NCBI GenBank assembly: GCA_023078555.1
Contig: CM041199.1
Coordinates: 1,426,001 to 1,490,000 of the forward strand
Origin: Ulva prolifera
Taxonomy: Eukaryota; Chlorophyta; Ulvophyceae; Ulvales; Ulvaceae
Direction of reading: 5' to 3'
Length of the DNA: 64,000 nt
Positions within the stretch are counted from its first letter, which is position 1; every line of letters starts with the position of its first letter. The position numbers and the translations under genes are program-made. Positions 239 through 45,259 of the stretch are shown in pieces. The notes beneath the pieces are model-generated. The model saw nothing but the letters and a program-made list of their open reading frames with translations. It was not told the origin of the DNA and searched no databases.

Positions 239-1425
239 CGTGCAGCCACCCTTTGGTTGAGCACCCTGCCGCTCTCCCAGGCGCTGCGCATGACTGACAT
301 TGAGTTCATGCTGTGCATCAGGTATCTCCTGGGCATGTCCCCAGCCCCTCCCAATGCGGTCGGCTCGCGCTGCGAATGTGGCACTCTCATACAGCCGCAT
401 GATCTCGACCACGCGATGAATTGCACGCACAATGCGGGGACCTGGACTTCGCGCCACAATATCGTTGAAAAACAATGGCGCGAGATCGGGTCCCACGCGT
501 GTGTGGCATCCACCCGCATCCCGCGCACAGCGCCGTTCGTCCGCGCGCGGCTCGCGGCCGCATCGAGGCAGATCCATGCTAGCCCGTTGGGCTCGCCCCC
601 CCCTGCTCCGCCCCAGCCCGCCACCCAGGTCGCGGGCCCTTCGCGTGGGGCAGCCTTGCCCGCGGCGCCGATGCCTGCAGCCCCGCCGCCGCCGCCAACC
701 GCGCGCGCGGACGAGGCGCCGGCACCTACGCCTGCTCCGGCCGCCGACGCCAATGCTGGACACAGCGCCCAGATGGGGTGCCACACGCCGAACGCAGCGC
801 GGGCTGCGGCCCTGGCGGCGGCGGCGGCGGCGCCGGGTGGTCAGGATCCGGCGGGGCCTGGGGAGCAGGCCGCTGCCGCGCAGGCAACGGCGCTGGATCA
901 GGTGTTCAGGGCAGTGGCCCACGAGAAACTGGGGGACATCATGTTTATGCCGCCGGGTGACCCTTTGTGCATAGGAGATGTGTCGGTTGTGAACCCCTGT
1001 GCCGGTTCCTATTGCGGCCGTGCGGCCCGCGAGGACGGGGGTGCTGCGGAGACGCGGGACGTGCAGAAACGCACTGCTTATCGTTTGTACGACCCTGATG
1101 CGTATAGTTTTGTGCCGTTGTCGCATGAGACGCATGGTCGATTGGGACGGCCTGCCATGAATCACTTGAATCGGCTGGCGGAGGTTGCGTCTCGGTGTGG
1201 CAAGGTGAACCGTGCTTTGTTTGTGACGAATGCTCTGCGCCGGTTGAGTGTGGCGTTGTGCAAGGGGAATGCTCTTGTGCTCCGTGCGGGGCTTCGATCT
1301 TTGGCTGGCATCACCGGCCGAGCTGTGGTACGTGCTCGTGCCCGGCCTAGTGCCATGACTGCGTGAGTGGATTTGCGTGTGTATTCCTGGCAACGGCTCG
1401 CTTCCCGGCCTCTGTCCTTTGTAAC
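239..1425 (+). mobile_element. 5'-truncated non-LTR retrotransposon (LINE), 3' end with ORF2 C-terminus
   Basis: The open frame through this copy (to the stop at 1366) encodes the C-terminal part of a LINE polyprotein. It starts downstream of any reverse transcriptase core. A zinc-knuckle-like motif (CxC, then HDLDHAMNC) lies near 380-425. A Pro/Ala-rich linker follows, then a conserved C-terminal block (HGRLGRPAMNHLNRLAEV...) at about 1130-1365. The non-coding tail ends CTTTGTAAC at 1425. The 9-bp TACATACGC occurs at 230-238 and 1426-1434 as a target-site duplication. Six other fragments of the family are in this window, and the copy at 44301-45247 is nearly the same protein in the shared part. 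The frame is intact but cannot be autonomous without the RT domain. Assignment to a LINE clade is not possible from this part alone. Confidence 0.8.
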
Positions 1426-1434
1426 TACATACGC

Positions 1435-2614
1435 ACACCAGGCTCAGACCTGTGGCAGGCATCGGCCTGCCGCTGCATGCACGCCCAGGCACCCCGCACA
1501 GCTGCGCGGCCATCGGTCAGCAGCCTCCAGGGCCATGCTCCTCTAGCACCGCTGCCTCAACAGTGGGTGTTTCACCACCCACATTGCCCCGAAGCGCATG
1601 TGTATGTACGCATGCATGAATAGTCATACCCATTCAGTGACCACTCCGAAATCCGGGACCGGACATATTCTGCCATGTCAAGCCCTGGAGGGCTGCGTAT
1701 GTGCATCTCAGTGTACCTCTTGCCCGTGTACATTGCCTCGTCAGCATGCCTACCGCCAGCTTTACTAACGACTCTCATCTTCATGCAGCAATCCTCCCCC
1801 ATTTGATATGAATTACGGCCAGCAGCGTGCAGCTGGCACGTGACCACCACAGCTACAGCCAAACGCTAACGGGACTGCATGCCCAGCAGCAGACGGCAAA
1901 TGCACCTGTAGCCACCCAGGCGGGGCCGCGGGCGATCAGGCGCCGCCAGCGCTCGCCAGGGTTGAACCGTCCCGGCCCCACAGCCGCGCAAACGCGCTGC
2001 ATAGCAACGAGAACAGCCACATCTTGTGTAGCTGCCACTCCACTAGCCCCCGGTCCAGCAGCCCTCGACACCTGCAGCAACTGACACGCACTCAGGCACT
2101 TCGCACCGAAGCGTGGGGCTTGCCGAGGTCAAGGCGTCGGGTTTAGCTGCAGCCGTGGGCATGGATGACACAACACCTGGGGTGGGACGGCGACGTGCAG
2201 GCAAGTTCACAGAGGATATGTATGCAGCGGACGCTGCAGTGCTTTTACTTCGCTGCATGTGGCAACCCAGTGACACGACCGCCGTGAGCCGTGCAAGGGT
2301 CCAGTGGCACAGCGGCCACATCACTGTGTTGCTGCGCTGCACCCTGGCACGGGGGAAGCGTAAAGTCGGTTTCGGCAGACTGAGAGCTGCTCCGACGTGC
2401 CAGCGCTGCGCCGCATCGCATAGCCGCATCGCCACCCGCAACATGCATGCCAACATCCCCGCACATGCAGCACAGCGATGCCATGGCCACACGATCACAC
2501 ATCGTCGGCGACCGCGCTGCAAGCCACACGGCATTCCGGCCTTGTGCCGGCATGAATCCGATCACCAAGCCTACGGGATCACACAACTCCAGCATCCAAG
2601 CTGCGAGCCACACG
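1435..2614. other. intergenic; no supported gene
   Basis: Open frames occur on both strands but none has family-like sequence or consistent splice sites. The part next to 2614 is probably the 3' untranslated region of the ADCK1-like gene on the minus strand. Confidence 0.4.
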
Positions 2615-5600
2615 TCATTTAGAATCCAGCACAGGGGCATAAGGCCGACCGTCAAGCCACCGCGATGAAGAGGGGGGGATGGCGCACCGGGCGGCGACGG
2701 CTGCGGCGCCGGAGGCGCGTGCGGCGCGGTCCTCGGACAGTGCGCGGCAGCACGCGCGCGCGGTGATGGAGATGGCGTTGAGGGGCCGCCCGAGCTCGGC
2801 GTCGATGGAGCGCAGGCAGTCGTTCGTCTTGAGCAGCAGCAGCAGCTCGCGCGGCACCCGCCGCAGCAGCTCCGAGATCTCGGCCTGGTACTTTCGCGCG
2901 TACCCCCGCACCTCCTCGTTGTCCTGCAGCGGCGTGGTCACGGTGTCGCCGCGCTCTCTATGGCCTCAGTGAGACCTCTCCATCGTCCCAGCACAAGTTT
3001 CGGAAAGGCTTGGGTTGATGGATACGGGCGACTCGTGATTTCCTTTGCAGGGGATTACAGGCTTGGCTCCACGAAGGTCACATTTGTCCTGCGTACGGGT
3101 ATTCAAACAAATCCGTACTGTTGCTGTGCATCGGGGGCAGTTGCAAGAATGTGTTGCGCAGTGAGACAGATCATATCGGAGCGGCATGACCTCGCCCGAG
3201 CATGCTGTAGCGGGCCGGACGATCAGGCCCCACAGGGCTGCATCGATGCACAAACGATCACATAGCAGATGCACAAACGATGTACAATCTGTTTCTGCAT
3301 CTGCTATGTGATCGCTTGCGCGGGCGGGTCGCCTCCGGAGCCAGCAACGCTCCAACCAGGACACCGCCACGGTTGCCCAGCAGCGGTGGTTCACAGTGCC
3401 CGCACGACCACATCACAGGAGCAGGCCAGCAGCGCCTCTGAATCCGCACGCGCTGCACCTGTCCATGCATGCTGGGCGAGCGCACCGCGTCGCCGCCGGC
3501 GGTGCGGAGGTTCTCGAAGGAGCGCTTCTGCAGGCGCTCCCAGGGCCGCAGGGTGAGCATGGAGGCGAAGAGGGGGTACAGGTCGCCGGCGTTCATGGCG
3601 GCGGAGTGCGTGCGGATGGCGTCGACGTCCGCGAAGATGAGCGCCCGCCACAGCGCGGCGTAGCTCAGCCGGAAGTCGTCCCCGATCTGCCTGCACACCG
3701 CGCCTGGTAGTATGTGTGTAGTGACCGTATGTAGTTACAAAGGACAGAGGCCGGGCACGGAAGCGTTTCTCGAAGTGGCCGTATGTATGAATGTATGTCG
3801 TCGCTGTCCTGGCTCCTTCAATGTAATGAGCCGTGCTGACCCACGTCGCTAGAGTCCGCCGGGAAATGTGCCACACAGCAAATGCCGCCACACAGCCGTT
3901 CTCGTTCCCACCAAGCAGCGAAGCCCTGGAGATTGGCGCACTGTGACAGCTGCGCCAAACCGCCCGGCCGCGCTCGTGATCAAGTCATAGCGCCTTTGTC
4001 AAGGACGCACCGCGTGGCGGCACACCGGCAGACGGCGGTCATCCAGGGTGGTTTGACCGGGTATGGTGGTTGTGGCATGCATGCATTCGAATGCAGTGCG
4101 TTCAGCCGCAATGCTTCACAGTGAGCTCTGATGCTCTGCCATGCCACATGACGCAAGCTCATCACAACACAAGAAGAAAGAACCCATAACAGAAACTCAA
4201 CCTTGATTAAAAAAAAAAAAAACAAAACAGCAATGCAAACAGAATCCAAAGAATCAAAATAACAATGCAATCAGTGACCAAATGGAAACCACTAGACGAA
4301 TCGTCCGCACCGGTAGAGGCCGTGGTCGAGTAGCACGAGCTGCACCGGGCCGGCGCCGCGGGCGCCACGGCGCACGAGCATGTTGGCCGCGTGTGGGTCG
4401 CAGTGCACGTCCCCAAAGTGGAAGATCATCTCGTCAAAGACGGCGGCGACAAGGGCCGCGACCGCGCGCGGCGGCGCGCCCAGCGCGCGCAGCGCGGCGG
4501 GGTCCCGCACGGAGGCGCCCTCACAGAACTCCATCGTGATGACCCGCCGCGAGGTCGCGCCGCGGTGGACCTCGGGGATGTGGACGTGCTTCCCGAAGCG
4601 CGACCTGCAGCGCCCCTCCGGGAACTGCTTGACTGACCAATGTAATCATAGTAGATGTTACAAAGGAGGGAACGGGCGTAAGCAAGCCTACCCCGATCAA
4701 CACATGGTTGGGCCCCCACACAACTTCGGCGGGTTGAATCACGGCTGTCGCTCCTGCGTACGCTGAGGATGTAGCTTCCACACCAGCGCAAGAAATCATG
4801 GCTTGGCTGAAGGGTATGTCGTCTCGTCGGGGCCCCCACATTCATACCGGGCGGCCCAATGGGGACATGCAGGCTGCATCATGCGTGGCCGTGCTGTGAC
4901 ATGACCGCTACACCCCTGCATCTTCGCCCGTCGCCGCATTGTGTGCTGACTCCGCAGCAGCACTCTCGTAGGCTGGGGGTGCGGCAGCACCGCGCTGCGG
5001 CAGCAGTGTGAAACGACTTCCATCCCACAGGCATGCGGCGGCTTCATGCGGGAGGTGTGTGTGTGCGCGTGATCATATGGCTATGGCCATAGGGGCATAG
5101 CTGAGTGTATTTGCATGTGTGAATATTATGGATCATATTTGTATGCATACAGGGTTCCAGGGCGGCACCTTGGGCTTGCAAAGTTGCGGCGGCAGCGGTC
5201 GGCGTTGTCGGCCTCCGCCGCAAAGTCGAGCTCCCGCGGCAGATTCACGTTGACCTCGTCGACGAGCCACCGGAAGTCGTACCGCGGGAACGCCCACCTG
5301 ACCGCCTCCACTAGCACCCTGCACGGCGCTCTCCTGGCATGGCTGGCACGGCATATTCCCAGGTTGCGTGGATCAATAGCACGGACTGTCATGTGTGCCA
5401 TGGTCACATGCCGATGACCCACGCCAGGTGTGTCGACACTGCCACGGTATCATATGGTTTGAGCAGTGTTGAGCGCCTCTTGATCCACGTTCTGTTGATG
5501 TATGACACGATCCGGACATGGTTGAATGGCGTACGATCTTTTGACTGGATCAGGGATGCAAGCGGGGCGGATGTGGTTGCAATCCACGAAGTTTGGGACA

Positions 5601-6746
5601 GGTGGCGATCTCGAGTGCAGGGGAGCTGCATACCACAGGTCTGAGGATCTGTGGTGTGGCGGAGGAGCGGTAAAGCGCACGTGATGGTGGCAACATCTGC
5701 AGCAGCTGTCTCTTGCAGGCCCTCATGCTGCACCTTGACCGCGACCGTGCGGCCATCATGCATCACTGCCCGGTGGACCTGGGCCAGGGAGGCGCTTGCG
5801 AAGGGCGTCTCCTCGAAGGATGCAAACATGTCGCCAGGGAGTTGGCCAAAGTCCTCCCGGAACGTCCTGCACAAGGAGTCGTAGGAGGAGGTTGGGCAGC
5901 GGTCCAGCGCGTGGTCCCGCATCTTCTTGACATACTGCGCAGGTAGCAGGTGATCCTGCACAGGGGCGGCAGGTGTGGCTGTTTGAAGACCGGCTGTGCG
6001 GTGTGATGCAGTAGATGTGGAGTTGGCTGGGTGCACAGCTTGGCTAGTGGTGTCTGAGGGGACATGCATCAAGCCTGGCACATTTCAAAGCGCATAAACG
6101 CGCAGGGCGGACCCAGAGATTTCGTGACGTTCGCTGGCGTTGCCTGCAGCTGCACTGCGCGAGAATCCTCTACGTGTGGACGTTCGGGCTGAGGCGCAAG
6201 TCAGATTGTGCATGTTCTTGTGGACACGAGGGCGTGGCTGTGGAAAAAATACCACTGAAAACCGGTCAAGCAGCATACCAATTGACCGATGTGTTGGGCG
6301 AACTTGATGTAAACGCCGCTGTTTGCGAAGCATAGATTCAAAAGCATCTGGGCGCCTCGTTCGTGACACTCTTGCATCTCCTCTTTGCGTGCGGCCTCAT
6401 CCTTTATTCGTGAGACAGCCGTATAGTCTGGAGAAGCGTAAGTTCAGGTACGGACGAGTATCTGCTTCTCCTGAGGGCGCGATGCCGAAGACGGAACTTC
6501 GCCGGAGCGCAGTGCCGAGGAGCATGTGGCACGACCTTCCTGAGACGATAGCACCGCAGGCGATTCAAGAGTCGTACCAGAAACCATAGTGATCACTGCT
6601 GATATATCTCGTGTTGCTCTCACGGCCATCAGGCCTGTCCTTTGTGCTGAAGCGACTGGGGACTCCCCATACGCAAGACTGGTACCCACCCATGCTGCTG
6701 CTGCAGTCCCGATCACCGCCGATGTCTTATATAGTATACTAGTCAT
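2615..6746 (-). CDS. ADCK1: ADCK1-type ABC1/UbiB atypical kinase, 7 exons
   Basis: This is an ABC1 (UbiB) family atypical kinase-like protein of the ADCK1 branch, whose animal member sits in mitochondria. Proposed exons (- strand): 6746-6578, 6427-6279, 5955-5681, 5318-5169, 4604-4311, 3690-3459, 2923-2615. All junctions are GT-AG and in frame, giving 525 residues, close to the usual ADCK1 length of about 530. Recognisable parts in order: a hydrophobic N-terminus; the KxGQ region, read here as IKFAQHIGQL; the Ala-rich nucleotide loop FASASLAQVHRA; the VAIK-type lysine in VAVKVQH; the catalytic-loop equivalent HCDPHAANMLV; the metal-binding DHG in LLDHGLY; and the family C-terminal segment RVPRELLLLLKTNDCLRSID. 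The first four introns and exon 5 are secure; the exon 6/7 junction is less certain because other donors exist near 3485. The KxGQ glycine is alanine. Intron 5 holds a 45-bp LINE insertion. Confidence 0.9.
3734..3778 (-). mobile_element. 45-bp LINE 3'-end insertion in an ADCK1 intron
   Basis: About 25 bases of the family 3' end (reverse complement, gttacaaaggacagaggccg) plus about 20 unmatched bases are flanked by 9-bp repeats CCGTATGTA at 3725-3733 and 3779-3787. It is an extremely 5'-truncated insertion. Confidence 0.75.
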
Positions 6747-7727
6747 TCTTCAATTTTCCAGCTCACAGAATCGCGCAACTACGTGTGTATTTGATGTTTC
6801 ACATCTTCCATCATGTGCCAGGCGCAGCGTTGCGAGTACTCCGGCTGAACTACAAATCATGTGCACTGACGTGCGATTCAGGAGCTTGAGGTACCGTCAT
6901 ACGCACGGGCGCATATCATGGCCACCATGCTGGGCTGGACGTCGGGCGCAGTGATCGGTTCAGCAACAACGTCGAGTGTCAGGGCATCGCACTTGCAGCC
7001 ATGGAAGCATGCAGCACAAATCACCCGGCACGGCGTGCACTGTAGACAGCCTGCCACGATTGCATCGTCACTGTATACAGAGTTTTTGCCACGTTCGAAT
7101 AATACAGGAGAGATGTTGATGCTAGTGTGGTTCACAACATATGAAATGTGTCTGGTCTAGCAGCATCAACCTGCAATGATCAATGATGACATGACACACG
7201 AGCAGCGATTGCTGCGCATGGCTACAGCTGCATCGGCTTCCAACCAGCTGCATCTGGACCGCTGATGAATCGCTCACGACTTCACAGCCATGCATGAGTG
7301 CACCCCGTGGCCATCGCACAATGCCGCAATGCACACTTGTGGATGGAGCATGCTAGAACAGCTGTTCTGTGTTGCGCCAATGCATGTCTGTTCAATGCCA
7401 GCTTGAAGCTCACAATCAAAGTTTCATGCGGCAGCTGCCACACAGATGGCATGCGGTGTGCACAGCCAAGATGCTCCCTCGACGACTTGCCGGCAGGCGC
7501 GGATGGTTGTACGGATCATTGGCCTCGGAGGTGTTGGCAGCAGTATCTGTGACATATCGGGCAACATGGCGAGTCAGTGATTGTGTGAGTCTGTCGGCAG
7601 AAATTCTGCTTCAGGTCCCACCCCGAGTATTCCTCACTGCCTTACACAATGGACACCTCGCCCAAGCTATGTTCATGTCTCGTCAAGTAAAAAATGCATA
7701 CAACGCTTGGTGGTCAGCGTTGAGCTG
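6747..7727. other. intergenic; upstream of the ADCK1-like gene
   Basis: I see no supported exon. The region lies between the start of the ADCK1-like gene and the end of the rubredoxin gene, both on the minus strand, so it should contain the ADCK1 promoter. A plus-strand frame of 160 codons ending at 7851 overlaps the rubredoxin 3' exon and has no family character. Confidence 0.35.
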
Positions 7728-8366
7728 CTACCACTCGCGAGCTCTCATGCGCGCAACCATTGACTTGTTGTCGTTGCGTGGCTTCTTGCCTGCGTTTCCC
7801 TTGTATGCCTTAAAGCGCTTCTTGGCTGAGGAGCACACCGGGCACTTGTAGCCATTTGGCTGCTCACTGAAGGGCATGCGGCCATCGTAGATGTAGCTGC
7901 ACAGTATCACTGGTGTCAGCTGCATGTAAAATGCTCACATAGACGTCTGACGGTGTCATGGATCGCCATATTATCATGCATACATGTCTGGCCTGGTTGC
8001 AGAGGTAGCTATGTTAGGCCACAGTGACCGGGAGGTCCATGCCTTGGCACCAGCCAATACGAAAAAACATAGATCAATGCGATGGAAATGATATGCGCCT
8101 CAGGTTGCTTTAGATGGGGCAGTGCTGTACCCACAGTCAACGCAGATGTAAGGCTTGGAGTCATCAATGGCAGCACCACCACCGCCGAATAGGCCACCCA
8201 GGAAGGCTACTTTCACCTCGCGAGTCTCAGCAGCAAGCACTGTGCGAGCTGGGAGCACCTGCAACAGGGACCCACGGATCATCGACGACGATGCTGCTGC
8301 TCTCGCCGGCACTGCGAACACCGGCAGCCAGACAACGGGACGTGTACCGAAATATTGACCACTCAT
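7728..8366 (-). CDS. rubredoxin-like protein, probably plastid-targeted, 2 exons
   Basis: This is a small one-iron electron-carrier fold of the plant rubredoxin-like family. Exons 8366-8131 and 7896-7728 join in frame (GG|gtacag ... gtgcag|C) and give 134 residues. The four iron-binding cysteines are in CVDCG, at the end of exon 1, and CPVC, in exon 2. The intron falls exactly inside the first CxxCG knuckle. The core reads YICVDCGYIYDGRMPF, then YKCPVCSSAKKRFKAY, which is the usual plant pattern. About 70 residues rich in Ala, Arg and Ser precede the core and look like a plastid transit peptide. The basic C-terminus has no membrane segment, unlike membrane-anchored rubredoxins such as RBD1. 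The exact start is uncertain because an acceptor-like site (gttcgcag) lies within the N-terminus, so an upstream exon is possible. Confidence 0.85.
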
Positions 8367-9173
8367 CTACGGGCCCCAGGCGGCTGGTTTTGGGGTCTGT
8401 GTTGCGATCGGCCGGCTTGCTGCTAGGTCATGTGAGGCAGCAGTGCTGCCATGAGTCGGTGAGCTAGCTGGCACAAATCATCCACCGTTTATGGACATCA
8501 GGCGTACAGAACTTTCCACGAGCTACCCAAACGCCAGCAGGTAGATACGAAGTAAATGTTTCGGCTGCATTGTCTGTTTATGCGCGCAAGTCCTGTCCAC
8601 GGTCAGATGTCGCGAACGCATTTATGGATCAGCGAAGAGCCGAGGCGGGCACATACACACGACCCCTCCCCACCTCACGCCACCATTGTTGGCTGTTTGC
8701 AACATTTAAATCAAGGAAGAATACCTTTCCAACGAACGCTTTACGCGCAGGCTGCCTGATGGCAACGGCCGGCCCGGCAACACGCCCCACGCTCGCCTGC
8801 ATTCTGCCTATCTGAGGTTGTTACTGCTACAAGCTGAAATAATTTGATACGCTCTGTCGTAATGACATGGCACGTATAAATCGTAGAATGCTGGACACCG
8901 CTGTGCACTGTGAGGAGTGTACCAGCTGTGGCGGTTCAGCTGCGGTGAACCGCGAAGGGCGTGACTACAAGTGGAGAATGGCTCCGCACGTGTGCATCGG
9001 ATGGCTGAACGCACTCAAGCTGTCCATTTTGTGCACAACGATCTTTCGAAACGCCTCTACACACTGAGAATTTGCACATTGTCGTATGTCGATGAGCTGG
9101 CCCCGACAAGTGTACTTCTGGGATGCGCAGCAGTTCTTTCGGCATGCTTCCGTGTAATCTGTAGCGGCAATCC
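8367..9173. other. intergenic, between divergent genes
   Basis: No coding region is supported. The stretch separates the minus-strand rubredoxin gene from the plus-strand acidic protein, so it may serve as a shared promoter region. Confidence 0.35.
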
Positions 9174-23108: not shown

Positions 23109-26100
23109 ATGACTGAGGTAGAGAATGACGCTCCTGCCTTGGAGATCGATGTGGAATTGTCCATGGACATTTCTCCTGAGCTTCGCACACATACCACTCG
23201 CACTGGCAGGCACGGGCCAGCTGTGTCGAAAGAGAATGGAATCTCGTGCCTCATTCACGACTGCATTCTCTGTCGAATCTACATCGGGATGCAGCTTGGG
23301 CAAGTCCTGTTTTGGGACATGAAATCATCAGCTCAGGGAGCTGACTCCAAGCTGTACACAGGCCACAGCTGCCATAGGCTCATCGGACAGCATGCGGTGT
23401 GCCCAAAATCCAGTTTGTTCTGAATTCAGGCTTTGTCTCGTGGTCTTCACATCAAGTCATTCGCACCTATTGTGATCCAGGGGTCTGTCAGCTGCCTAGC
23501 ATGCCTCCCACCAAGCATCAACCTGCCTATGCCGCTGCTGCTGAGTGGCAGTGCAGACCGCTGCATCAAGATATGGGATCCCAAGCGTGGAAATGCTATC
23601 TCCCCCTCCGTGCTGGTCCAGACACTGTACCGCCATGGAGGCACCGTCACTGCACTCGCAACCTGCGCTGACCACATCATTTCAGGCTCAACAGACAACA
23701 CAGTAAGGCTCTGGCGCTGTTCAGAAAACTGCCAGGCGTTGCTGTACCCACCGTTCGAACAAGTCAGGATCCTTGTGACCATGCCTGCATGGATTGTGAG
23801 CATCGCAGTTGCGGACTCGGTCGTCCAGCACAACTCAGATGGCAGCCTGATCATTGGTGACTTTGAAGCCAATATCAAGCAGATCTACTTCACCATCGAT
23901 ACCCGCCCGGGAATTCGCCGGTGTGACCACAGCTGCTGCTGCACAACAAACGTAGTTGCCACTTAACAGCATACCAGCACTGGATCCGTTTCTGCTCGTT
24001 GTATCGGCTTTCAATCACAGGACATCTTCTAGCGCCTGTATGTTCTGCACAGCACCATTGAGATAGATGTCTCACATACACCGTCAGAACGACCTGAGCA
24101 CCTAGCCTGACTCACAATGTCCCCTTGCTTACCACCTTGCCTTGCTGTACAGTATCGTAGATATTGGAACCATGCCGTCTTGCAAGAGCTTGACAATTCC
24201 GAATGGCTCGGACCACCGTCTTAGCCGTAGGTGGCATTTGCAATGCGCACCCATGCTCGTGTGAGGCCAGCCGGTGGACACTCCTTCATCTGTGGAAGCG
24301 GGGCTGTGAACGAGGGCCACAGGCACCGGCTATCGAATCCCAGATATCCCGTGCAGATGTTGCAGCGCCAGATGCGGAGAAAACAACTACCAGCGTACCT
24401 TGTCAATGTCCGTATGACTATGGCAAAGTGGTCATATCTTCAAACTTCGCTGTGGCGTGCACGAACCGCATCCCCCCAGGGCCCCTGCGCTACGTCAGTG
24501 CAGCACCATATACTCCCTTTATATATATCAAGTAAAACAAGTTTGGTCATCCTTGCTAGATCCTTGTCATCGTATCTTGCAGGAGGCCCCGGACAGGCTG
24601 ACACACCTCGCCTGGGAGCTGCCTGTGTTCAAACCACCTGTGTGTGCATGAATGCACGGCCTGATCCATTGAAACATGGATGAAACATGGATAACCTCGA
24701 AGTCTGGGATCGGATGCTTGTGGTCATCCGCAAGCATATGTGTGCAGCCTGGCTCCCGACGGCGGCCCCCGCATGCTCGTGCCGCCGCAGCAGGACCGAG
24801 GCCTCATCGCGCTCGCCTTTGACGCCGAGCACGCGCTGCTAGCCACGCTCTCCTGGGACAACTGCCTGCGGGTGTATGACACGAGCACCCCCGCGGCCGC
24901 CGCGGCCCCCGCGGCCACCGCGAACGAGCACGGCTGCCCATTCACAGCCCTGCACTACGACCGCACTCACCAGCAGGTGCGCTCCCCCTCCTCCCGCTAG
25001 CACAGCGCATGCCGCAACCCCATGCATGTATGTGGTGACAAAGGACAGAGGTCGGGCATGGAGCCGTGTCGCGGAATCCACTCGAAAATCCACTCACGCA
25101 TTCATCGCACCAGGCCGGGCACGAGCGCGTACCACAGCCCTGCCGGTGATTCCAGCCAAAGATTGAAGCCCCGCACGGAGCACATGAGCATTCCGTTTGC
25201 ACAACGCCACACTCAACCGGCGCAAAGCATTCGTCACAAACACGCCATGGTCCACCACACCACACCGAGACGCAACCTACATGTAGTTACAAAGGACAGA
25301 GGCCGGGCAGCGAGCCGTTGCCAGGAATACACACGCAAATCCACTCACGCAGTCATGGCACTAGGCCGGGCACGAGCACGTACCACAGCTCGGCCGGTGA
25401 TGCCAGCCAAAGATGCCAACCTACATGTATGTATGTGTGCGTGACTATGTACGCTTTGAGACATGGACAACTCCGGAATCCAGGACCGGATGAGGCATCC
25501 ATGCTACATGCTGCAGTACGTGCTCTGCCACTCAGGTGTATCTCACAGCCATCATGAGCCATGGGCACCGTCTGCTGTCCGGTGCTGCACGCACACCGAG
25601 TCTCATGCAACGTCTCAATCTCTCGCAGCGCAGCAGCGGCGGTCGTGATTGCTGTAGGGAAGCTGCTGTAGGCACTGCAACACAGCCACAGCCTCACAGT
25701 GGTCCGCCACGTTGCCAATGGTCAGACACCACAGTGCCAGTGATGTGTCGCAGCAGGGCACACACACACACACACGCATGGGCTGCGACGCACCACTGGC
25801 ACCATGCCCCCGGAGTCCTGGGCCAGAACACATGCACCATATCCACGACGGCCTGGCGTCGCCGCCACAGAGTCGTGGCCGTGGGCGTGCAGGTGGTGAC
25901 TGTCGATCGGCAGGGCTTCGTGGCGCTGCACCGCGCGGCCGACGCGGCGATGCTCGCGACGAAGCGCGTCTGCCGCGGGGCCGCGGTGGCGCTCGTGGGC
26001 GCGGCGCCAGGCGCGCTCGCGGTCGCGACCGCCGCCGGCGCCGCCTTCTGGCGCGTCCGCCGGGAGCTGCCCTACAACGTCCTCCGCGGCGGCCACAGCG

Positions 26101-30972: not shown

Positions 30973-33900
30973 CTACGCATGCTGCCCATGCGGATCAAGC
31001 TGCTGTGCCAGGTACTGTAGTGCGGCGATAATCGACCGCAGCTCGGCCGCCTCCGCCGCCTTGGCAACGCCGACACTTGCCGCCAGCGTGTCGTCAATGA
31101 GTTCCAGTGCCGCCACGGCCCGCCGCATCGCGGCCGCCGGACAGTCAGCAACCGCCACCACCGCCCCAACTGCCCCCGCCGCCGCGCTGTCCGTCAGCGA
31201 CAGCGCCGCGCCCGTCCGCGTCGCGACATCAAAGCCACCGCCAGCCACCCGAAACGCGCGCAGCAGCGCCTCGTACCCCACCGCCTGGAGCACTGGGTGG
31301 CGGAGCAGCTCGCATGAGACGTAGTGCCGCTGCGACGCGTCGCCGGCCGCGGCGGCGCTCATCGCGGGCACAGTGCCGGGCCCGAGGGGCGGCGCCGACG
31401 AGGCGCCGCTGCAGTCACTGTGACCGAGGGACGGCCCGGGGCTCGGCATGTGGAGGGGGCCGGTGGGGGTGTCGGCGGAGGAGGCCGCGTCGGCGTCGAG
31501 CAGCGTGTAGGCGCCGCGGCGTGGGTCAAAGTCACCGGCGGCGAGAAAGTCGAAGAGCTGGAAGGCGGCGAGCGCCGGGGAGGGGCCGACGGCGACGTCG
31601 GTGGCCCACATGCGCAGCAGGGTGTGGGAGTCGTGGAGCACGGCAAAGTCGATGGTAACGTGGCCTGCGCACCACACCGCACGAGCCTTGTTTCTCAACA
31701 AGGTCGTACATGAAAAAACCTTCGCTGCTCTTTCAAGTTCAGCGCACTGCACTTGCACCAGCCGACTGTAAAGCATGACTTCAACGGCCGCTATGAGTAC
31801 GCGATGCACGTGCAGATTGTGGGAGAGGTAGAGCGTTGTGGTAACACGCTTCGGAGCCAAGCCTCGGAAGCATTTAATCCGGACGCCAGCTGCGGTGTCT
31901 CATGCGAACTCGCTCTCGACCAGTGTGCAGCACGAATCCGCACCCAGCAGCAGCCACACCCTCATCGCACACGACCGCCGCAATGACTGGCGGAGCCACA
32001 CAGCTGGAGACAACGCAACGCATGCACGCCCCTCAGACGCATGCGGCGCGTTGCAGCGGCTGCAGATGGGGCGGGGCCGCACCCATGAACGCGTGGCGTG
32101 CGAGCGTCTCGCCGACGGCGACGGCGGCATCCGCGAGCGCGGCCGGCGTCACCGAGATCTGCGGGAACGCGTGGCCGACGCAGACGTGCGCGGGGCAGAA
32201 GATGCGCTCAAACGTCGCGACGATGGAGACGGTGCCGCTGGGCTGCACAAGGAGGCTGACCGAGGGCGCGCCGAGGGGCTGCGCCGGCGCCGCCTCCACC
32301 ACCGCCCCCCGCTCCCGCACCGCCTGCATATGCGTCTTTGTGTAGTTACAGGCGTAAAAATTAAAGTGGGCTCGCATCGGCAGAGCCTGAGCTCAACAGA
32401 TGCAGTACTGTGTGAAGCAAGGACCTTCCACATGTGCTTGCAGCAGTTTCTACCCAGCCAGGCGCGTACGATTCAACACATGTGTATGGGCGCCGCCGCC
32501 GATACCGGTCGCAAGAGCCGGCAGAGCCAACATGCGGCCGTCGCGGCGCTGCGGGGCATTTTCGCCGCAGTATAACACTTGCAATCCTGCCAGCAACAAC
32601 GGAACCCTGGGGGCAATTGCAGCAATGGCAGGAGTGATGCGTGAGCAGAAACGTCGCACCTGCACGAACGCACGGTAGCTCGGGTACGCAGACGGCGCGA
32701 GCACCCGCAGCGCTCCACGCAGGCCCCGTAGCAGCAGCGCCGCAAGCCGCTGCACGGCGGCCAGCCGCTCCTCCTCTGCGGTGCCCGCCGCCGCGCTGAC
32801 GGGCGCCGGGACCGGCCGGGGGCGCCCCGCTGCGCCCGCGCTGCGCGGGTTGGACGCCGCGGCCGAGTCTGCAGCCGCCGCGGCGCGGCGGGTCGCCGCG
32901 AGCTGGCACCACGCGTCCGCGTGGGCCGCAGCGAGGTCGCGGACGTCCGCCGCAACGAGCACTGCGGCGCCTGTGGCTGTCGCCTCGCCCTCCAGCTTGA
33001 TGAACCACCTCTGCAGATGCCGGCACAGCACTGTCGGAGCTGCCTCACTCATAAAACATGAGCTGCTCCGTGTTGAAGCAGTCATAATTATGCCATCGTC
33101 TGCGATCCTCCAGCGTCACGCCAGAATTGGTATAGATCAGCGCTGAGCAGGCCCCTGGGTCGATCATGCACTCTGTGACACTTCACTCCAAGCAATCCAG
33201 GTCACGACTGTGAAAGCCATGGTATGTATAGCCTCCTGAGGCACGGCCTCTATTCTCCAAAGCGGGGCCTAGAATTTTCCGGGCTCCATGCTGTTTCCAT
33301 CTCCAACACAGGCATGGGGTGTCCAAACGACACATGTAGACTCGGAAGAAGGAACGAGATATGCTTCATCACTCCTATGCCAGGACTGCGGCCATACCTT
33401 TGTGTGCTTGGTGCCAGGCTGCAGCATCGCAGACGCGATGCCCTCGCACAGCGCCCGGTCCTTGCGCTCGTGCCGCGGGGGCCTCGGCGGCTCCTCAGCC
33501 ACCTGCAGCTTCCCCTCCTCAAGCGAGAAGCTCAACTTCACAGTCGACCCCGCTCCCGCTCCCACCCGCACCGCAGCCCCCTCCCGCCTCGGCCCCTCCC
33601 GCACCCCCTGCATCAGCGATATACCCGCCTCCTCCACCCCCTCCCCAGCATCGGCAGCATGTCCACCTGTAGTCACAGTGTCCACAGGGGTGCCAATTGC
33701 AGCAGCAGCCTCGGCCGCGGGGATCGCAACGCCGGGAGGGACGTTCACGCGGGCCTGCTGGAGCAGCGCCCGCGCGCCAGCCTTGCCGGACACGGCCGTG
33801 GCGACCGCCGGCGCGGCGCCGAGCAGCGGCACCCCCAACGCCACTGAGAGCTCGACGTCCGCGTCGCTGATACCCCCAGGCACAATAAACGCGGCGCGGC

Positions 33901-37876: not shown

Positions 37877-39503
37877 TCAGCAGTGATTCGACGGCTGTGC
37901 TCGACTTCCAAAGCGAGAAATATCACAGCAGGCACGAGTAAGGCAATAACAGCTACATGCAGTGCAAGGCGGCGTCCGCACCAGGAGCTCATTTGGGAAG
38001 AAGTAAAAGTCTCCCAGGGGCGTCCCGAAGTCGCCTTCGTACGTCGTGCGAAGTGGCCGCAACCACTCTGGAACAAGGCAGTCCAGTAATTCTGACTGCT
38101 CAGAGAGGTCTAGTGCTGCCAACGCTCCCTGCAACAAACAGGCAGCCACTTGAAAGCATGGCATGGAGACGCTTCCCATCTGATGCATAGCTTTGGCAGG
38201 ATATTTCCAGCTACAATCTGAGACACAGGCATTGGCCTTCTGCTGTTGAGGATTCTTACAGCCCCACCACTCTGCTACAATTTGCTCCGAGTTGTGGTTG
38301 TGTAATTCTGCAATGGCTCTTGGCCGCACCCCTCTCGCCACCCCGGGGACGACAGACTGCAAGGGGTGCAACAGCACGGTGTGTACCAGGTGCAATGTGG
38401 ACTGTGCCATCAAGAGGTATCGTACAGGTGCACTCGAACTGCACCTTGACTTGTGCTGCGGCTGTAGAACTTCATGATGTATACAGCAAATCAGATGTAG
38501 CTTGTTGTGGTTGCGGTTGTGTTGATGCGTAACCCCAACACAGGCGTGAAGCGTGAAGCCCTTTGCAGTGAGACAAAGAAGTTGCCATGGCTCAGCAGTG
38601 TTAAATGCCAGTGCAGCCAGTTGCAGTTGCACTTTTCCGGTTCTAGTTGCTTACTAGGTCATGGATATGTGGCATGCCCTTGAGAGCCGTGCTTCAAGAG
38701 CTCCGAATGGCACAGTGGAACTGTATATCTTCGAATTCTGGATAGCTACACAATGTCGGCAAGGCCAGTGGGTGCGTGATAGAGAGTTCTGCGGTGTGTC
38801 ACCGTGACAATCTGTTGGATCAACAGTCGGGCCGACTCGATGCAGTGTTGAGCGATGCGCAGCCGCATGACCTGTGCAGCCCCACTGCATGCTGATTCAA
38901 CACAATCACCACAGCTACTCACTTGCGTGCAGATATCCAGAGACGCTCTGATCCAACGGAATGAAGGCAGCTCAGGCACACCGCTAGAGGCGGCTGCCAA
39001 CCGGCCACCATCACGATCACAAGCACCCACATTCAGCAGCTTTGCATAGGGCATTCTATATACAGAGATCGATGCAGAATCGTGTGCAGCAAGCCAGCAT
39101 GCGAAAGTCAACGGGACAATGCCTGATCCAGGCGATACCACAGTAGGCTGCTGGCAGCAAGGAACAGAGCGAGCCATGACAGCTCGTGTTTCACTCTTGA
39201 GTCTAGATACGGTGCTATCTCGATACAGCAGCCACCTGTTTAAAAAACAACAAGATAAAAATTGAGCAGGTAATTTCACCTCTTGCACGGAGGTGTGAGC
39301 AGGATCACCGGAGTTGACCAGTGCGCTGTGACAGATGGGCCTCGTGAGGTCGTTCGCTCTGTGTCGAACTGGTGTATCGAGGGCACCTAAAGGTCAAGGG
39401 CCACTCCATCTAGACGACACTGTGACTGGCGCCATGCCTTTGGCCGAGTTCAAGTGCATAGGCATGGAGCAGCTTGGGCAGGCGGGCTGATGTGGGGGCG
39501 TAC

Positions 39504-40225
39504 CCGGTGCCAAAGAAAGTTGCGCCAGTCCATGCCAGCCTGGGAGAACTCGAGGTGACTGCTGGACTGGCAGTAGCCGAGGTTGTATGGGAACGACTTG
39601 TTCTGTTGCGGGAACTCTTGTGCATGGAACAGCAGCCCAAGAGACTGGGTTGGGGTCACAAAAAGATGGGCGTGGAATAGATCGAATCGATCCAGGTTCA
39701 CCTGCAAGTGCGACCGCGGATTGAGGGCTGCAGCACTTGTTGTGATGATTTAGAGAGATGATGACATATTGAATCACTGTACCATAAATGTGCTGCTGAC
39801 TCTTGCTGATTGGCCTCCTCAGTGGAGATCAGTCTTTTATAAAGATCGGCTGAGCTGAACGTGACCGAAGTATGCTGAATTGATAACCTGAAACACGAAG
39901 CTGTGCCGTCCACAAGGCCTAGCTTATCGAACAGTTTTGGATTGTTGACCAGATCAGCACCTGCGGGATTGACTTGAGGTCAGCTGTTGCGGTGTGAATG
40001 GTTGCGAACAGGTTGCCAACGAACTTATTGATGTCTGCATCTGTGAACACGAACGCCTTGTCCACAGGGAACAAGCTGCAGTGGTCGGTGCTTGCGCACT
40101 GGATGTCAGGCAGGCTGTGGCGAAACTCATGCAGGTGATCGTGGAGGTTGCTCATATCTGCTGCTACCGCAGCCTCGACGTGTGACCATTCCTTGGGTGA
40201 CGCGTCCTCCGAGAGAATGACTATT
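39504..40225 (-). CDS. unrecognised gene, two well-joined internal exons
   Basis: Exons 40225-39961 and 39701-39504 join in frame (CCGCAG|gtgctg ... cttgcag|GTGAAC). They read as globular protein: IVILSEDASPKEWSHVEAAV, HDHLHEFRHSLPDIQ, FPVDKAFVFTDADINKF, then RFDLFHAHLFVTPTQSLGLL and FPYNLGYCQSSSHLEF, ending DWRNFLWHR. The style is that of a conserved eukaryotic family, but I cannot name it. Coding-like stretches further downstream on the same strand may be later exons: 38830-39180 (MPYAKLLNVGACDRDGG, MRLRIAQHCIESARLLIQ) and 37980-38165 (LLDCLVPEWLRPLRTTYEGD). A possible first exon near 40280-40339 reads IEKLLIFKCDGTILQ but is out of phase with exon 40225. Gene limits are therefore unknown. 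Confidence 0.5.
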
Positions 40226-40339
40226 CTGCGACAGGGAGCCCATGGAAGAAGGGAGCATGCTCGATGCAGCAACCTGCAGGATCGTTCCATCGCATTTGAA
40301 GATGAGCAGCTTCTCTATTGGTGCAGTGGCGGCAGTCAT

Positions 40340-41785
40340 GTGCCTTACCTTTGTGGGTGCTCGGACCGCACCACTTCAATGGCTGTTGATCAAAGGTGCA
40401 TCGTTCACAGCAATTCAACACGCGCCGTGCAACAGCTCCACATGCTTGAGAGCCATACGCAATGATGGAATATGTTCGATGGTGTTCAAGCGATGCGTGC
40501 TGGCGTGTCTGCCACAAAGGAGAATTCACTGCCGCTGTTGCGCCACACACAACGACGCCAGAGACAGCCGCTAGCCTCACACTGGACGCAAGCATTAGCT
40601 GAGCGCTCAACAAACTCCTGCCAAGCCACATTCAGCGTGATCGCTCTGCGTGGCTCGCATTGAATCGTCGATTGACATGGTCGCGCTACAGGACGACTTC
40701 GCAGCGGACAAGTAGTACCTCTCGGGTCCCCCATCACACCGGCTCTACACGCGTGTTCAGCCTGAAAATAAATTTTGTGATTGGAGCACCATGCAAGGCG
40801 GTGTCTACAGGATGACGCAGCTGAGCTCTGGCTCAAAGCAGGGTGTCCACCAGTGGTACTCACACGGACTTGATTTATTTTTCAAGTTGAATATTCGAGC
40901 AATTCCACAAAAGTGTATGTAGTTACAAAGGACAGAGGCCGGGTATCGGGCCGTTCCTAGGAATCCATCCGCAAATCCACTCAGTCATGGCACTGGGCCG
41001 GGTACGAGCACGCACCACAGCCCTGCCGGCGATGCCAGCCAAAGATTGAAGCCCCCCGCCCCCCCCCCCCCATAAAAAAGTGTATGTATGTATGAATACC
41101 GGTATATGCAAAATCTCATACCTGGACGTTGACAACTCCGAAATCCTTTTGTACAATTGTACACAGGTTTGGGCAGTGCAAGAGCACAGCCTACAGCAAT
41201 CAGCCCAGGGAGACTGGAGCAGACAAAGAGGCCATCTAGCGGTCCATGCATCGCCATCGTGAACATCATATGCCCGGGCGCAGCAACAAGGCAAAGAATA
41301 GGCAGACCTCAGGTCGAGCATTGCAGACCATCCGCTCTCCCGCCATCGGAGTCTCATAACGCGCAGCCTGCACAGGCACAAGAGCTGCCGCATGCACTCT
41401 GCACAGCACAAGCACCACCGGCCTACCCCTCTGCCCCATCTTCACAACAGCATGTTCCACACACCATCTTAGTCGCACGTCTAGCTGGCAACACGCTTAC
41501 GCTGGTTTCAAGCGAGGCCCCGAGGAGCACATGGACACGAAGCCCCATATATGCACGCTCGTGGTCGCAGTTACGCTGAAACAGTCGGGCATTCCCGGCA
41601 GCAGCTGTAGCAAACGAGTCAGACAGCCACGAACATCCGCACTCCGACCAGCAGCACTGCCATGGCGTACATGCATCGGTGCCGTGCACTACCAATCAAC
41701 ACACACGCTCAACATGGCACCCTGACCGTCGCCGCCCGCGCTCAGGCGCCCTCTGCAGAGCGGTGACAGCACCCCGCGGGAGCAG
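40340..41785. other. intergenic, with a LINE fragment
   Basis: Apart from the LINE 3' end at 40922-41075 I see nothing supported. Open frames at 41157-41579 and 40221-40631 have no family features. Confidence 0.35.
40922..41075 (-). mobile_element. 5'-truncated LINE 3' end with 13-bp target duplication
   Basis: 154 bp matching the reverse complement of the LINE 3' end, terminating in a C-rich run. AAAAGTGTATGTA is present at 40909-40921 and 41076-41088. Confidence 0.85.
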
Positions 41786-42487
41786 CTACAGCCTGCTCTG
41801 CATGCCCCCGGCGACTACGAGCGTCTCGCCCGTGACGTACGCCGCGTCGCACGACACCAGGAACGCCGCCGCGCCCGCGATGTCCTCCGGCGTCCCGAGC
41901 CTCCCGAGCGCCGTCTGCGCCTCCTGCACACACGCACATGCCTTGTCGTCGTTCCGCGCCAGGTGGCGGATGTGGTGTGGCTCGGTCAGGCTGTGGTTGT
42001 TCGCGCGTCCGGAGGTGCCCCCCGCGCGCCCATCTGTGCCCTTGTACCGCAGCGTGGCGTTGCCGTGTGCTGCGATAGATGCGTGCGCGAGAAACACATG
42101 TGCATGCATGCATAACCGCACGGTTGGATCCGCAGGGCCACCGGCAGCCACGCCGACAGGGCCTGGCCGCAGCCACGCGTCGCGGCACCCACACAAGAGT
42201 GCGGTCAGGCACGCGCGGATGTTGCAGGAAACAGCCGCACCGAGCATGGGCAGAGGCCGCTGCAGACCGGAACATGCGGGGGGCATGCGACAACGCCACC
42301 ACGTCCGGCTGAAGTCTCGGGGCGTGACTCTGGAGTCTCCAGTCACTTTGTCGATTCTCCATCGACAACGTTGCCTGTCCCACCCTGAGACTTCAACATG
42401 GCGCCACGTCCGTGGCGGTCATGCCGCATCCCAATTCAGCAGAAATCCAGCAAAGGACATGTGCTGGTGAGAGGTGGAGATGTGCGG

Positions 42488-42521
<34 letters not shown>

Positions 42522-43950
42522 AATGGCCACACCTGCTGCTCGCGCAGCGCGTCCGTGGCCACAAGCGCCGAGCTGAACTTTGTCGGCACGATCCCCGGCG
42601 CGATGCCATTCACGCGCACCCCGGAGGGCCCCAGCTCGTGCGCCAGCGCCTTCACCACGCCCAGCAGCGCGGTCTTGGACACCGCGTACGCCGAGATCGG
42701 CGGGGATGCCCGGAAGGCGGTGATGGACGTCACGAAGAGGACGGCCGCGTCGGCGGCGAGGTGCGGCCGGGCGGCGCCGACGAGCGCGACCGCCGACTTG
42801 ATGTTGACCGAGAGGATCTTGTCCATCGCGGCCGCCGGGGTGTCCAGGAGCGGCCCCATCGTCGGGTTGACGGTGGCGTTGAGGACGAGGACGTCGATGC
42901 GGGCGTACGCCTGCACGTGTGCCGTGAGGTGTTGGGGCTGCGACCCGTAAAGAGACCTTACAAATACCGGGTTGGTCGGTGGTTAGATGCGAATGCGCAT
43001 GCATGCTAGCCTTGTAGGTGCTAAGGAGTAGATGAGCGGGGTGATCTATGATGCGCCATGGCAGGTCGAGCGAGTGCGAGCGAGTGCGATGGCAAGAATG
43101 TAGGGGCGGTCGTATTATCAGGATGTCCCAGGTCACAGGCCCTCTGCTCTTTTCCCTTGAATCACTGGCCCGACTTTGGGCTGCATGGACGTAGGTTCGC
43201 CCATCGGTCAGTCTCGCAGAACCGATCCAATCGGAGATCCAGCGCAAAACATTGGGCAATCGGTGTCCGCTACTTCAAGACATGACTGTGCGGCACTAGG
43301 CTGAGAGGGAGGCGGATTGGAAGTGCCTTGCATGCCTCACATGACCGGCCCAGAGGGGTGTATGGGTGCATGGCCACATGTGGTTCGCTGTGTTTCAGGC
43401 AGACGTGACAGGAAAGATACAGCTGCGTCAAGGGAGCTGGAAGACCTCGAGGTTTTGTGTGCGGGAGGTGTACGGCATAGCTTGCAGCATTCTGGGGCAC
43501 GTGAGGAATGGTCAGGTCAGCTGGATGGGAGCAGGCATGGTCCCAGGTTCGCAGGTGGACATTGAGGTCACAGGGAGTTGTCGAAGCGGACGGCGTGCCT
43601 GGATGGCGAACTTGATGAGGGCAGCCTGTTGCTCGTCTGAACCGACATGGCATGGCATGCCAATGCAGTCGATGCCCTGTTCACGAAGCCGGGCCAAAGC
43701 TTCATCGACTGCACTCTGCCTCCTGCTGCTGATAACAACTGCACAATCGCTTGTACAGTGACGCCGATCGCAACGTGCCGGAGTGTCGCTGGTGGGTTCA
43801 GGTCAGGCGAAGCAGCTGCGCACCTTTGGCGCCTTCTTGGCCAAGCCTTACAGCAGTCGCTAAACCTATACCAGCTGTTGAGCCTGTTATCACAGCAACC
43901 TTGTCTCTGAACCGTTTCCCCAGCCCTTGCACGTCGATTTCAACACCCAT
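41786..43950 (-). CDS. DHRS4: DHRS4-type short-chain dehydrogenase/reductase, peroxisomal, 4 exons
   Basis: This is an NADP(H)-type carbonyl/retinal reductase of the SDR superfamily, DHRS4 branch. Exons (- strand): 43950-43824, 43738-43599, 42910-42533, 41923-41786, giving 260 residues, the normal length. Motifs: the nucleotide-binding TGSTAGIG; VVISSRRQ after beta-2; LVLNATVNP in place of the usual NNAA/NAA; the structural Asn in SVNIKSAV; the catalytic Ser in FVTSITAF; YAVSK with the catalytic Tyr and Lys; the PG motif in NGIAPGIVPTKFSS; and a C-terminus GETLVVAGGMQSRL. The final SRL is a type-1 peroxisomal targeting signal, as in animal DHRS4. The exon 2-3 intron appears to start with GC rather than GT (ATCCAG|gcacgc). 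Intron 3 starts gtgtggccattt followed by 30 C. An upstream Met at 43980 is also in frame. Confidence 0.9.
42491..42520. repeat. G30 homopolymer (C30 on the gene's sense strand)
   Basis: A run of 30 G on the plus strand begins 12 bases inside intron 3 of the DHRS4-type gene. Confidence 0.95.
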
Positions 43951-44300
43951 TGTGGCACGTTCACGATTTGTGGTCCGCAAGACCGGAGGTGACCAATAGA
44001 GTCACACGTAACCGTCGAGACTTGTGCCTTGGTCACCACATGGCTGGCGTTAAGGGTATCCTCGGCCCGACAAGCCTTTGATCGCGTCCGCGAGACGAAG
44101 CCATCATCTACCATGGGATCGAGGACACTTGCATGTAGGAGCGAATGCCCGGTTGTCCATCTTGCATACTAGGCCAAGTGGTATACTCTGTGTCCTATGA
44201 TAGGCATACTTGAAGATGCCTGGAAGTCTTTGAAGAATGTTCAGGCCAAGCCCTGTTGCAACACATATGCTTTGATCACACACAACGTATGCATGATGTA
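43951..44300. other. putative promoter region of the DHRS4-type gene
   Basis: It contains the in-frame upstream ATG at 43980 and the 12-bp LINE target site at 44289-44300. No promoter motif is obvious. Confidence 0.3.
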
Positions 44301-45247
44301 GTTACAAAGGACAGAGGCCGGGCAGCGAGCCGTTGCCAGGAATACACACGCAAATCCACTCACGCAGTCATGGCACTAGGCCGGGCACGAGCACGTACCA
44401 CAGCTCGGCCGGTGATGCCAGCCAAAGATTGAAGCCCCGCACGGAGCACAAGAGCATTCCCCTTGCACAACGCCACACTCAACCGGCGCAGAGCATTCGT
44501 CACAAACAAAGCACGGTTCACCTTGCCACACCGAGACGCAACCTCCGCCAGCCGATTCAAGTGATTCATGGCAGGCCGTCCCAATCGACCATGCGTCTCA
44601 TGCGACAACGGCACAAAACTATACACATCAGGGTCGTACAAACGATAAGCAGTGCGTTTCTGCACGTCCCGCGTCTCCGCAGCACCCCCGTCCTCGCGGG
44701 CCGCACGGCCGCAATAGGAACCGGCACAGGGGTTCACAACCGACACATCTCCTATGCACAAAGGGTCACCCGGCGGCATAAACATGATGTCCCCCAGTTT
44801 CTCCTGGGCCACTGCCCTGAACACCTGATCCAGCGCCGTTGCCTGCGCGGCAGCGGCCTGCTCCCCAGGCCCCGCCGGATCCTGACCACCCGGCGGCGCC
44901 GCCGCCGCCGCCAGGGCCGCAGCCCGCGCTGCGTCTGGCGCGTGGCGCCCCATCTGGGCGCTGTGTCCAGCATCGGCGTCGGCGGCCGGAGCAGGCGTAG
45001 GTGCCGGCGCCTCGTCCGCGCGCGCGGTTGGCGGCGGCAGCGGGGCTGCAGGCATCGGCGCCGCGGGCAAGGTCGCCCCACGCGAAGGGCCCGCGACCTG
45101 GGAGGCGGGCTGGGGCGGAGCAGGGGGGGTCGGGCCCAATGGGCCAGCATGGATCTGCCTCGGAGCGGCCGCGAGCCGCGCGCGGACGAACGGCGCTGTG
45201 CGCGGGATGCGCGTGGATGCCACACACGCGTGGGACCCGATGTGATC
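44301..45247 (-). mobile_element. 5'-truncated LINE with 12-bp target duplication
   Basis: This copy is the reverse complement of the element at 239-1425. It starts at the family 3' end and runs back to the GSHACVASTRIPRTAPFV part of the protein, about 0.95 kb. The encoded protein is nearly the same as in the first copy and the frame is open. ATGCATGATGTA lies at 44289-44300 and 45248-45259. A few unmatched bases (gtgatc) occur at the 5' junction, as is common for LINE insertions. The zinc-knuckle part present in the first copy is missing here. Confidence 0.88.
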
Positions 45248-45259
45248 ATGCATGATGTA

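Follow-up and report, generated by a model that had tools for sequence, protein, structure and literature searches.

TACAT-type target sites at the 3′ junctions of a LINE in Ulva prolifera

LINE A, a long interspersed nuclear element (LINE) in the genome of Ulva prolifera, has a fixed 3′ terminal GTAAC that is followed at most of its copies by TACAT. The element was analyzed in a 64,000-nucleotide stretch of contig CM041199.1 (assembly GCA_023078555.1, positions 1,426,001 to 1,490,000 of the forward strand; here called the window) and in the assembly as a whole. Four features support target-selective, target-primed insertion: the 3′ end is fixed, the 5′ truncation varies, the duplications start at TACAT and reach into non-repeat target sequence, and the motif is enriched ~1000-fold at the junctions. 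A LINE of this type, which builds arrays and uses the tails of a second LINE (LINE B) as landing pads, is the best explanation of the data, with a probability of roughly 85%.

Target sites and target duplications

Window positions 239–45259 carry five copies of LINE A and an older sixth, all of which were read directly. The five copies end in GTAAC on the sense strand at the coordinates given in the preliminary description, TACAT follows GTAAC directly in 5/5, and exact duplications that start with TACAT flank each copy; they measure 9, 9, 13, 13 and 12 bp in copies 1 to 5, in line with the 9–13 bp that had been claimed. The older copy abuts CACATACATGCATG on the sense strand, also as described; its own end is GTCAC, followed in the sense direction by CACATACATG. 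An automatic duplication rule caught three of the five duplications (copy 1 through locus L002, copy 3 and copy 5; L numbers denote individual loci), and those of copies 2 and 4 were found by eye. The 3′ duplication of copy 3 overlaps copy 6 at its 5′ edge, so copy 3 landed there. The features are as follows, with 5′ and 3′ in the sense of the element.

230..238, plus strand: 5′ target duplication of copy 1, TACATACGC (9 bp); automatic rule and direct reading
239..1425, plus strand: copy 1, 5′-truncated LINE A, 1187 bp; direct reading
1426..1434, plus strand: 3′ target duplication of copy 1, TACATACGC; direct reading
3725..3733, minus strand: 3′ target duplication of copy 2, TACATACGG (9 bp); by eye
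3734..3778, minus strand: copy 2, a 45-bp 3′ stub of LINE A; direct reading
3779..3787, minus strand: 5′ target duplication of copy 2; by eye
25035..25278, minus strand: copy 6, an older fragment of LINE A that is 87% identical to the L039 reference
25273..25285, minus strand: 3′ target duplication of copy 3, TACATGTAGGTTG (13 bp); automatic rule and direct reading
25286..25417, minus strand: copy 3 of LINE A; direct reading and automatic rule
25418..25430, minus strand: 5′ target duplication of copy 3; automatic rule and direct reading
40909..40921, minus strand: 3′ target duplication of copy 4, TACATACACTTTT (13 bp); by eye
40922..41075, minus strand: copy 4 of LINE A, 86% identical where it aligns
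41076..41088, minus strand: 5′ target duplication of copy 4; by eye
44289..44300, minus strand: 3′ target duplication of copy 5, TACATCATGCAT (12 bp); automatic rule and direct reading
44301..45247, minus strand: copy 5 of LINE A, 5′-truncated; automatic rule
45248..45259, minus strand: 5′ target duplication of copy 5; automatic rule and direct reading
45260..45290, minus strand: 3′ end of LINE B (...ATGGATACGGCTATGTGATCATGCA), whose tail is the landing site of copy 5
47802..48097, plus strand: degenerate remnant of LINE A-like protein sequence in two pieces (residues 979–1078, ~80% identity); tblastn

The 88.9-Mb assembly (44 contigs) was searched with the exact 19-nt 3′ end of LINE A, GGCCTCTGTCCTTTGTAAC, and copies with variant 3′ ends fall outside the counts. 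The 19-mer occurs 777 times (387 + 390) and is followed directly by TACAT at 597 of these places; the reversed control gave 0 for either count. The possibility that most copies lack TACAT, raised in the preliminary description, was thus not borne out. Outside the copies, TACAT occupies 91 of the 122,334 strand-positions of the window. The comparison of junctions with background that had been proposed as a check therefore gives an enrichment of ~1030-fold, which is not a chance result. The sites number in the hundreds, are spread over many contigs, and are not in 28S ribosomal DNA (rDNA).

An unselected sample consisted of the first 100 genome places of the 19-mer, all on contig C1, and the flank played no part in their choice. 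TACAT stands at 75 of these junctions. Among the remaining 25, 17 deviate by a single base (four CACAT, two TACAC, two TAAAT and nine words seen once) and eight deviate further. The longer word TACATACA occupies 51/100 C1 junctions, and given TACAT it is present in 51/75 junctions vs 8/91 background TACAT words (p = 7e-16). It occurs 7120 times in the genome, of which roughly 400 (5–6%) lie directly behind an element end by extrapolation from C1. The proposal that insertion is guided to microsatellites is upheld to the extent that TACATACA is strongly preferred. A microsatellite is not required, however: the base after TACAT in the 597 junctions is A in 508 and C, G or T in 89. The recognized unit is a short (TRCA)-phased motif rather than a microsatellite as such.

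Both ends were in hand at 138 of 162 sites, made up of 87 of the 100 unselected C1 sites and 51 of 62 sites elsewhere that had been selected because C, G or T comes after their TACAT. A duplication score of at least 9 was reached at 73/138 sites vs 290/2742 pairings with swapped flanks, a control rate of 10.6% that arises because the sites resemble each other. This background weighs against target-primed, target-selective insertion, as do the 65/138 sites that gave no duplication under the score rule and the 180/777 exact 3′ ends that lack TACAT at the junction. Dropping repeats of the same site and tandem sites left 48 sites (31 on C1, 17 elsewhere). The duplications are 11–14 bp long in 29/48 and range from 9 to 22 bp, 22 bp being the measuring limit. 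Their upstream copy reads TACAT in 37, TGCAT in 5, CACAT in 2 and another word in 4. At the 3′ copy, TACAT is present in 42/48, partly through selection. On C1 the word is TACAT upstream at 21/31 and at the 3′ copy at 25/31, and the selected sites elsewhere have it upstream at 16/17. The upstream duplicate reads TACAT at most sites, and TACAT is therefore a property of the target.

These counts bear on the rival reading that the element itself ends in TACAT or a (TACA)n tail, much as many LINEs end in microsatellites, and that the site preference is illusory. The preliminary description had named this outcome as one that would overturn it. It is very improbable. The TACAT word is duplicated upstream together with non-repeat sequence at many sites (TACATGTGGCTGCCGG, TACATATTGCAAAGAG, TACATGGGGGCG), the upstream copy is TACAT in the 37/48 cases above, and some copies have non-TACAT targets on both sides (GACAACACACCGA, CACATGGAAGTT, AACATACATGCA). 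A microsatellite tail owned by the element was likewise rejected, the flank being duplicated upstream. The observation on its side is a mismatch at the second base of the site, by which the TA might in part be templated by the element.

Position 2 differs between the two duplicates at 7/48 sites, with G upstream six times and T once and with A at the junction in every case, vs 10/521 differences at positions 1 and 3–12 (Fisher p = 2e-4). Of these sites, L025, L076 and L083 sit in (TACA)n tails and are ambiguous because a changed repeat number would look identical. Excluding the sites in LINE B tails leaves 4/42 (L016, L035, L043 and L113, all G>A) vs 8/455 (p = 0.013), and TGCATACAGTGCC/TACATACAGTGCC is a clean example. 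The primer may sometimes end short of these bases, in which case the template would supply TA; later mutation is an alternative. A fixed GTAACTA end is disfavored because both sides begin with a base other than T in the copies at GACAACACACCGA, CACATGGAAGTT and AACATACATGCA, and because L022 has TGCAT on either side. The earlier statement that the motif comes from the target and not from the element consequently stands for most sites, and the A at position 2 may be element-templated at some.

The same mismatch bears on an RNA-guided pathway, in which the RNA reads into the TACAT flank of its parent copy, the RNA tail pairs with the nicked target and the protein needs less specificity of its own. 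The TG>TA change fits a primer ending in ATG on a template reading ...GUAACUACAU, and sites beside the element's own 3′ ends are strongly re-used (21/87, below). This pathway is nevertheless rather unlikely. The mismatch loses three of its seven cases to (TACA)n tails, the target base is retained in copies whose first base is not T, as it is in L022, and the specificity reaches upstream of the nick to bases that an RNA tail could not read. Of the 48 sites, 33 have C at −2, 35 have A at −1 and 34 have A at −5, a preference that persists with the LINE B tails excluded (29/42, 29/42 and 28/42, respectively). It fits (TRCA)-phased recognition over ~14 bp. A bolder version of the pathway, in which a LINE with a restriction-like endonuclease (RLE) in a green host inherits its address through pairing of the RNA tail with the target, edits TGCAT to TACAT and finds renewable pads in the LINE B tails, is unlikely.

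Structure of LINE A and its predicted protein

LINE A is ~4.05 kb long and has a single frame of 1208 codons, with 59 nt of 3′ untranslated region (UTR) from the stop codon to the end of GTAAC. Locus L039 on contig C2 holds two tandem copies, of which the second is whole (L039:3723-7773, 4051 bp, with a TACATACATACAT duplication) and the first is seen without its initial ~340 nt, which lie outside the fetched stretch. Their exact 5′ 22-mers are 4064 bp apart. Both are stop-free over 1208 codons (stop to stop), with the first ATG at codon 12, and they differ at 16/3624 nt and 10 residues; such near-identical copies suggest recent activity. Most copies are truncated. The 5′ 22-mer has 33 exact genome occurrences vs 777 for the 3′ end, and the 87 C1 copies with both ends have a median length of 84 bp, a value biased to short because copies longer than the fetched stretch were not counted. 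In the window, copy 1 codes for the knuckle-like motif, the probable endonuclease and the stop, followed by the 59-nt 3′ UTR with its GTAAC end, and its last 276 bp reach a top score equal to that of four other genome copies.

The protein contains, in order, a C2H2-like motif, a proline-rich stretch, the reverse transcriptase (RT), a knuckle-like motif and then RH, GD-X13-DV and KRTAY. The C2H2-like motif lies at residues 14–39 and scores 11.2 bits against Pfam zf-C2H2, below the cut-off. The RT matches Pfam RVT_1 at 8.5e-11 and its catalytic motif reads YHDD, where the usual form is YADD. The best relatives among solved RT structures are R2 proteins (7.3e-06), vs 0.48 for L1 ORF2p, a proximity that leaves the clade unfixed because few LINE RTs are solved. 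The RT, the fixed 3′ end, the variable 5′ truncation and the target duplications identify LINE A as a non-long terminal repeat (non-LTR) retrotransposon.

The predicted protein has the layout of an RLE-LINE, with a single open reading frame (ORF) and no apurinic endonuclease (APE) domain before the RT. According to the excerpt of PMC5678591 consulted, the knuckle of RLE-LINEs is CX2-3CX7-8HX4C, R2Bm has RH, the core is a variant PD-(D/E)XK, and in KX2KY the second K is weakly conserved. By eye, LINE A has RH after the knuckle, D-X13-D and K-X2-x-Y (KRTAY). Motifs and domain order make a restriction-like endonuclease, albeit one with some unusual residues, the probable identity of its C-terminal domain. 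Four results count against this assignment: the knuckle-like C-X1-C-X10-H-X3-C (residues 878–895) departs from the RLE spacing, the catalytic PD reads GD, the endonuclease region searched alone had no Pfam match in the window copy, and a PDB search with that region gave low-complexity matches only. An APE-type LINE whose RLE motifs are chance resemblances would account for a C-terminal domain without a profile match, and yet it is improbable. Pfam at E values up to 1 gave only RVT_1 and the weak C2H2 finger and no endonuclease domain ahead of the RT, the ORF is single, the RT is closest to R2 among solved LINEs, and the RLE motifs follow the knuckle.

Arrays, LINE B tails and element C

New copies of LINE A often lie beside older ones. 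A LINE A 3′ end is found within 60 bp upstream of the copy at 21/87 C1 sites and a LINE B end at 10/87, duplicate sites included in both counts, and both rates are far above random placement. Such arrays could instead have grown by unequal crossing-over or segmental duplication, which is quite unlikely as their general origin. Clear duplicate sites exist (L009/L017/L018 and L143/L150/L151), as does a repeated unit in L056. In the arrays examined, by contrast, neighbors mostly differ in truncation point, and they are therefore separate insertions. The L037/L038 neighbors are truncated at 62, 381, 302, 111 and 699 or more bp, and several other pairs differ too. Duplication alone was rejected for the arrays examined and kept for a few sites. 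L009, L017 and L018 are one LINE A insertion with identical flanks that occurs three times on C1, at 16 kb, at 1.268 Mb and at 1.274 Mb; the probable cause is a segmental duplication that links the contig end with an inner region. At L069 (C1:7163096-7164875), a single palindromic TACATATGTA site has two LINE A ends that point in opposite directions.

LINE B shows a 360-codon open frame in the 1.1 kb seen, a TAA stop, TCATGCA and then a (TACA)n tail, and its copies start at varying points. The LINE A protein had no tblastn match in it; its anatomy and the look of its protein suggest that it is a LINE. The examples are:

L025:1-1093; also L006, L014, L032, L048, L049 and L076: LINE B with the frame open up to the 3′ end

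The exact LINE B end (23-mer) occurs 92 times in the genome and a 19-mer stopping before CATGCA 106 times. Twelve LINE B ends lie on C1 up to 10.9 Mb, the range with all exact LINE A ends listed. Seven of them hold a LINE A copy directly in the tail (L014, L025, L032, L048, L060, L069 and L076), and the other five were judged by coordinates. The use of 7/12 tails vs ~6% of TACATACA words overall gives p = 2e-6 under that rough rate. The window echoes both habits: copy 5 sits in a LINE B tail, and the older copy 6 has copy 3 at its TACAT flank. Related B-type ends with a TTTAC-type tail (GGATACGGCTCAGTA...) are present in L060, L082 and L099. An older B-like end (TCCCGGATTTCGGAG...GACTATTCATGCATGCGTACATACACA) lies at window ~1600–1690 on the minus strand, close downstream of copy 1.

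At 8/100 C1 sites, foreign upstream sequence is joined to the last ~60 nt of LINE A, which belong to its 3′ UTR. Full copies of this element, called C, are ~0.9 kb long, have the same 5′ end (TATTGATTATCG...) within each of three flanking sequences (L013, L083 and L096/L088), and end in GTAAC followed by TACAT-like sequence.

L020:681-1519; also L013, L083, L088, L095 and L096: element C, ~0.9 kb

That C is a diverged LINE was rejected; its blastn similarity to LINE A stops ~62 nt from the end, and the LINE A protein had no match inside C (tblastn, E up to 1e-5). Judged by these sequences, C is probably a non-autonomous partner that uses the LINE A machinery in trans, which suggests that the 3′ UTR could be enough for recognition by that machinery. 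One frame of the L020 copy is open for ~245 codons.

Insertion model and relation to known systems

The following pathway would account for these properties. LINE A is an autonomous, single-ORF element whose protein probably binds a (TRCA)n-phased site with a consensus of approximately CAnnCA|TACATACA and probably nicks the bottom strand next to TACAT. The freed 3′ end (...ATGTA, perhaps sometimes ...ATG) would prime reverse transcription from the fixed terminal GTAAC of the RNA. A top-strand cut mostly 11–14 bp away would yield the target duplication, and an early stop of the cDNA would leave a 5′-truncated copy. Insertion duplicates TACAT, so that the site stays open and arrays pile up at one spot, and the (TACA)n tails of LINE B serve as landing pads.

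The window and genome contain other retroelements. A copia-type LTR retrotransposon with a stop-free frame of 1854 codons occupies window 54155–59716 on the minus strand; RVT_2 (3.6e-54) and Pol_BBD are over the cut-off, and the integrase core and gag are just under it. The whole-genome RVT_1 search gave 150 matches among the 150 scored of 452 candidates, with many frames stop-free over more than 1300 codons, and several other retroelement families in the genome look young. At window 30976–31899 (minus strand), the IQCH ATP-grasp domain is matched weakly and below the cut-off, at 2.6e-4 and 20.9 bits. An Rfam scan of the window found nothing at gathering scores. The genome also gives 38 matches to chlorophyll a/b-binding proteins, several of them interrupted as if by introns, and a single frame matches 58 distinct PDB sequences of these proteins at E values up to 1e-100; the host is accordingly a eukaryote with chlorophyll a/b (a green alga, a plant or a secondary green alga).

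With hundreds of copies in one genome, the targets that a natural site-selective LINE prefers can be mapped densely and to the base pair. The TG>TA shift, if real, provides a direct way to test whether pairing of the template contributes to target choice, a question relevant to LINE-based gene insertion. Landing on LINE B tails shows a selective element living on a target that other elements keep making.

LINE A shares with the RLE-LINEs R2, R4, NeSL, HERO and CRE a single ORF, an N-terminal zinc-finger-like motif, the RT, a knuckle and a probable RLE, as well as a precise 3′ junction, variable 5′ ends and target specificity. It differs from them in knuckle spacing, in GD for PD, in YHDD and in a TACAT-motif target instead of a gene. 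Unlike that of R2, its target is not 28S rDNA, although R2 proteins remain the best solved match. Short-repeat targets are also used by Waldo, Dong, the telomere-targeting MoTeR, TRAS and SART, and some of these form head-to-tail arrays. The targets of all five differ from that of LINE A, and Waldo, TRAS and SART also differ in endonuclease type. SINE/LINE partners (short and long interspersed elements) have common 3′ ends, and C has only the last ~60 nt of LINE A and TACAT-like flanks in common with it; unlike such partners, C is ~0.9 kb long.

In the sections of PMC4640811 consulted, most RLE-LINEs are target-specific, and some HERO families and Togen, which targets (TG)n, use microsatellites. 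Togen of fish and the microsatellite-specific HERO families are RLE-LINEs with a simple-repeat target (PMC4640811, same sections), and in this they resemble LINE A; the repeat differs. The same sections leave the position of Togen near NeSL and HERO unresolved and place Utopia in Amoebozoa, SAR and Opisthokonta (PMC4640811). R2 had not been found outside animals according to an excerpt of PMC5035012, as of that paper. A partial search of the open-licence PMC literature found no TACAT-targeting LINE, which is no proof of absence. Microsatellite-targeting RLE-LINEs are a known kind, to which LINE A would belong; what appears to be new is its target, together with landing in the tail of a second LINE, the possible shift at the junction and perhaps the host group.

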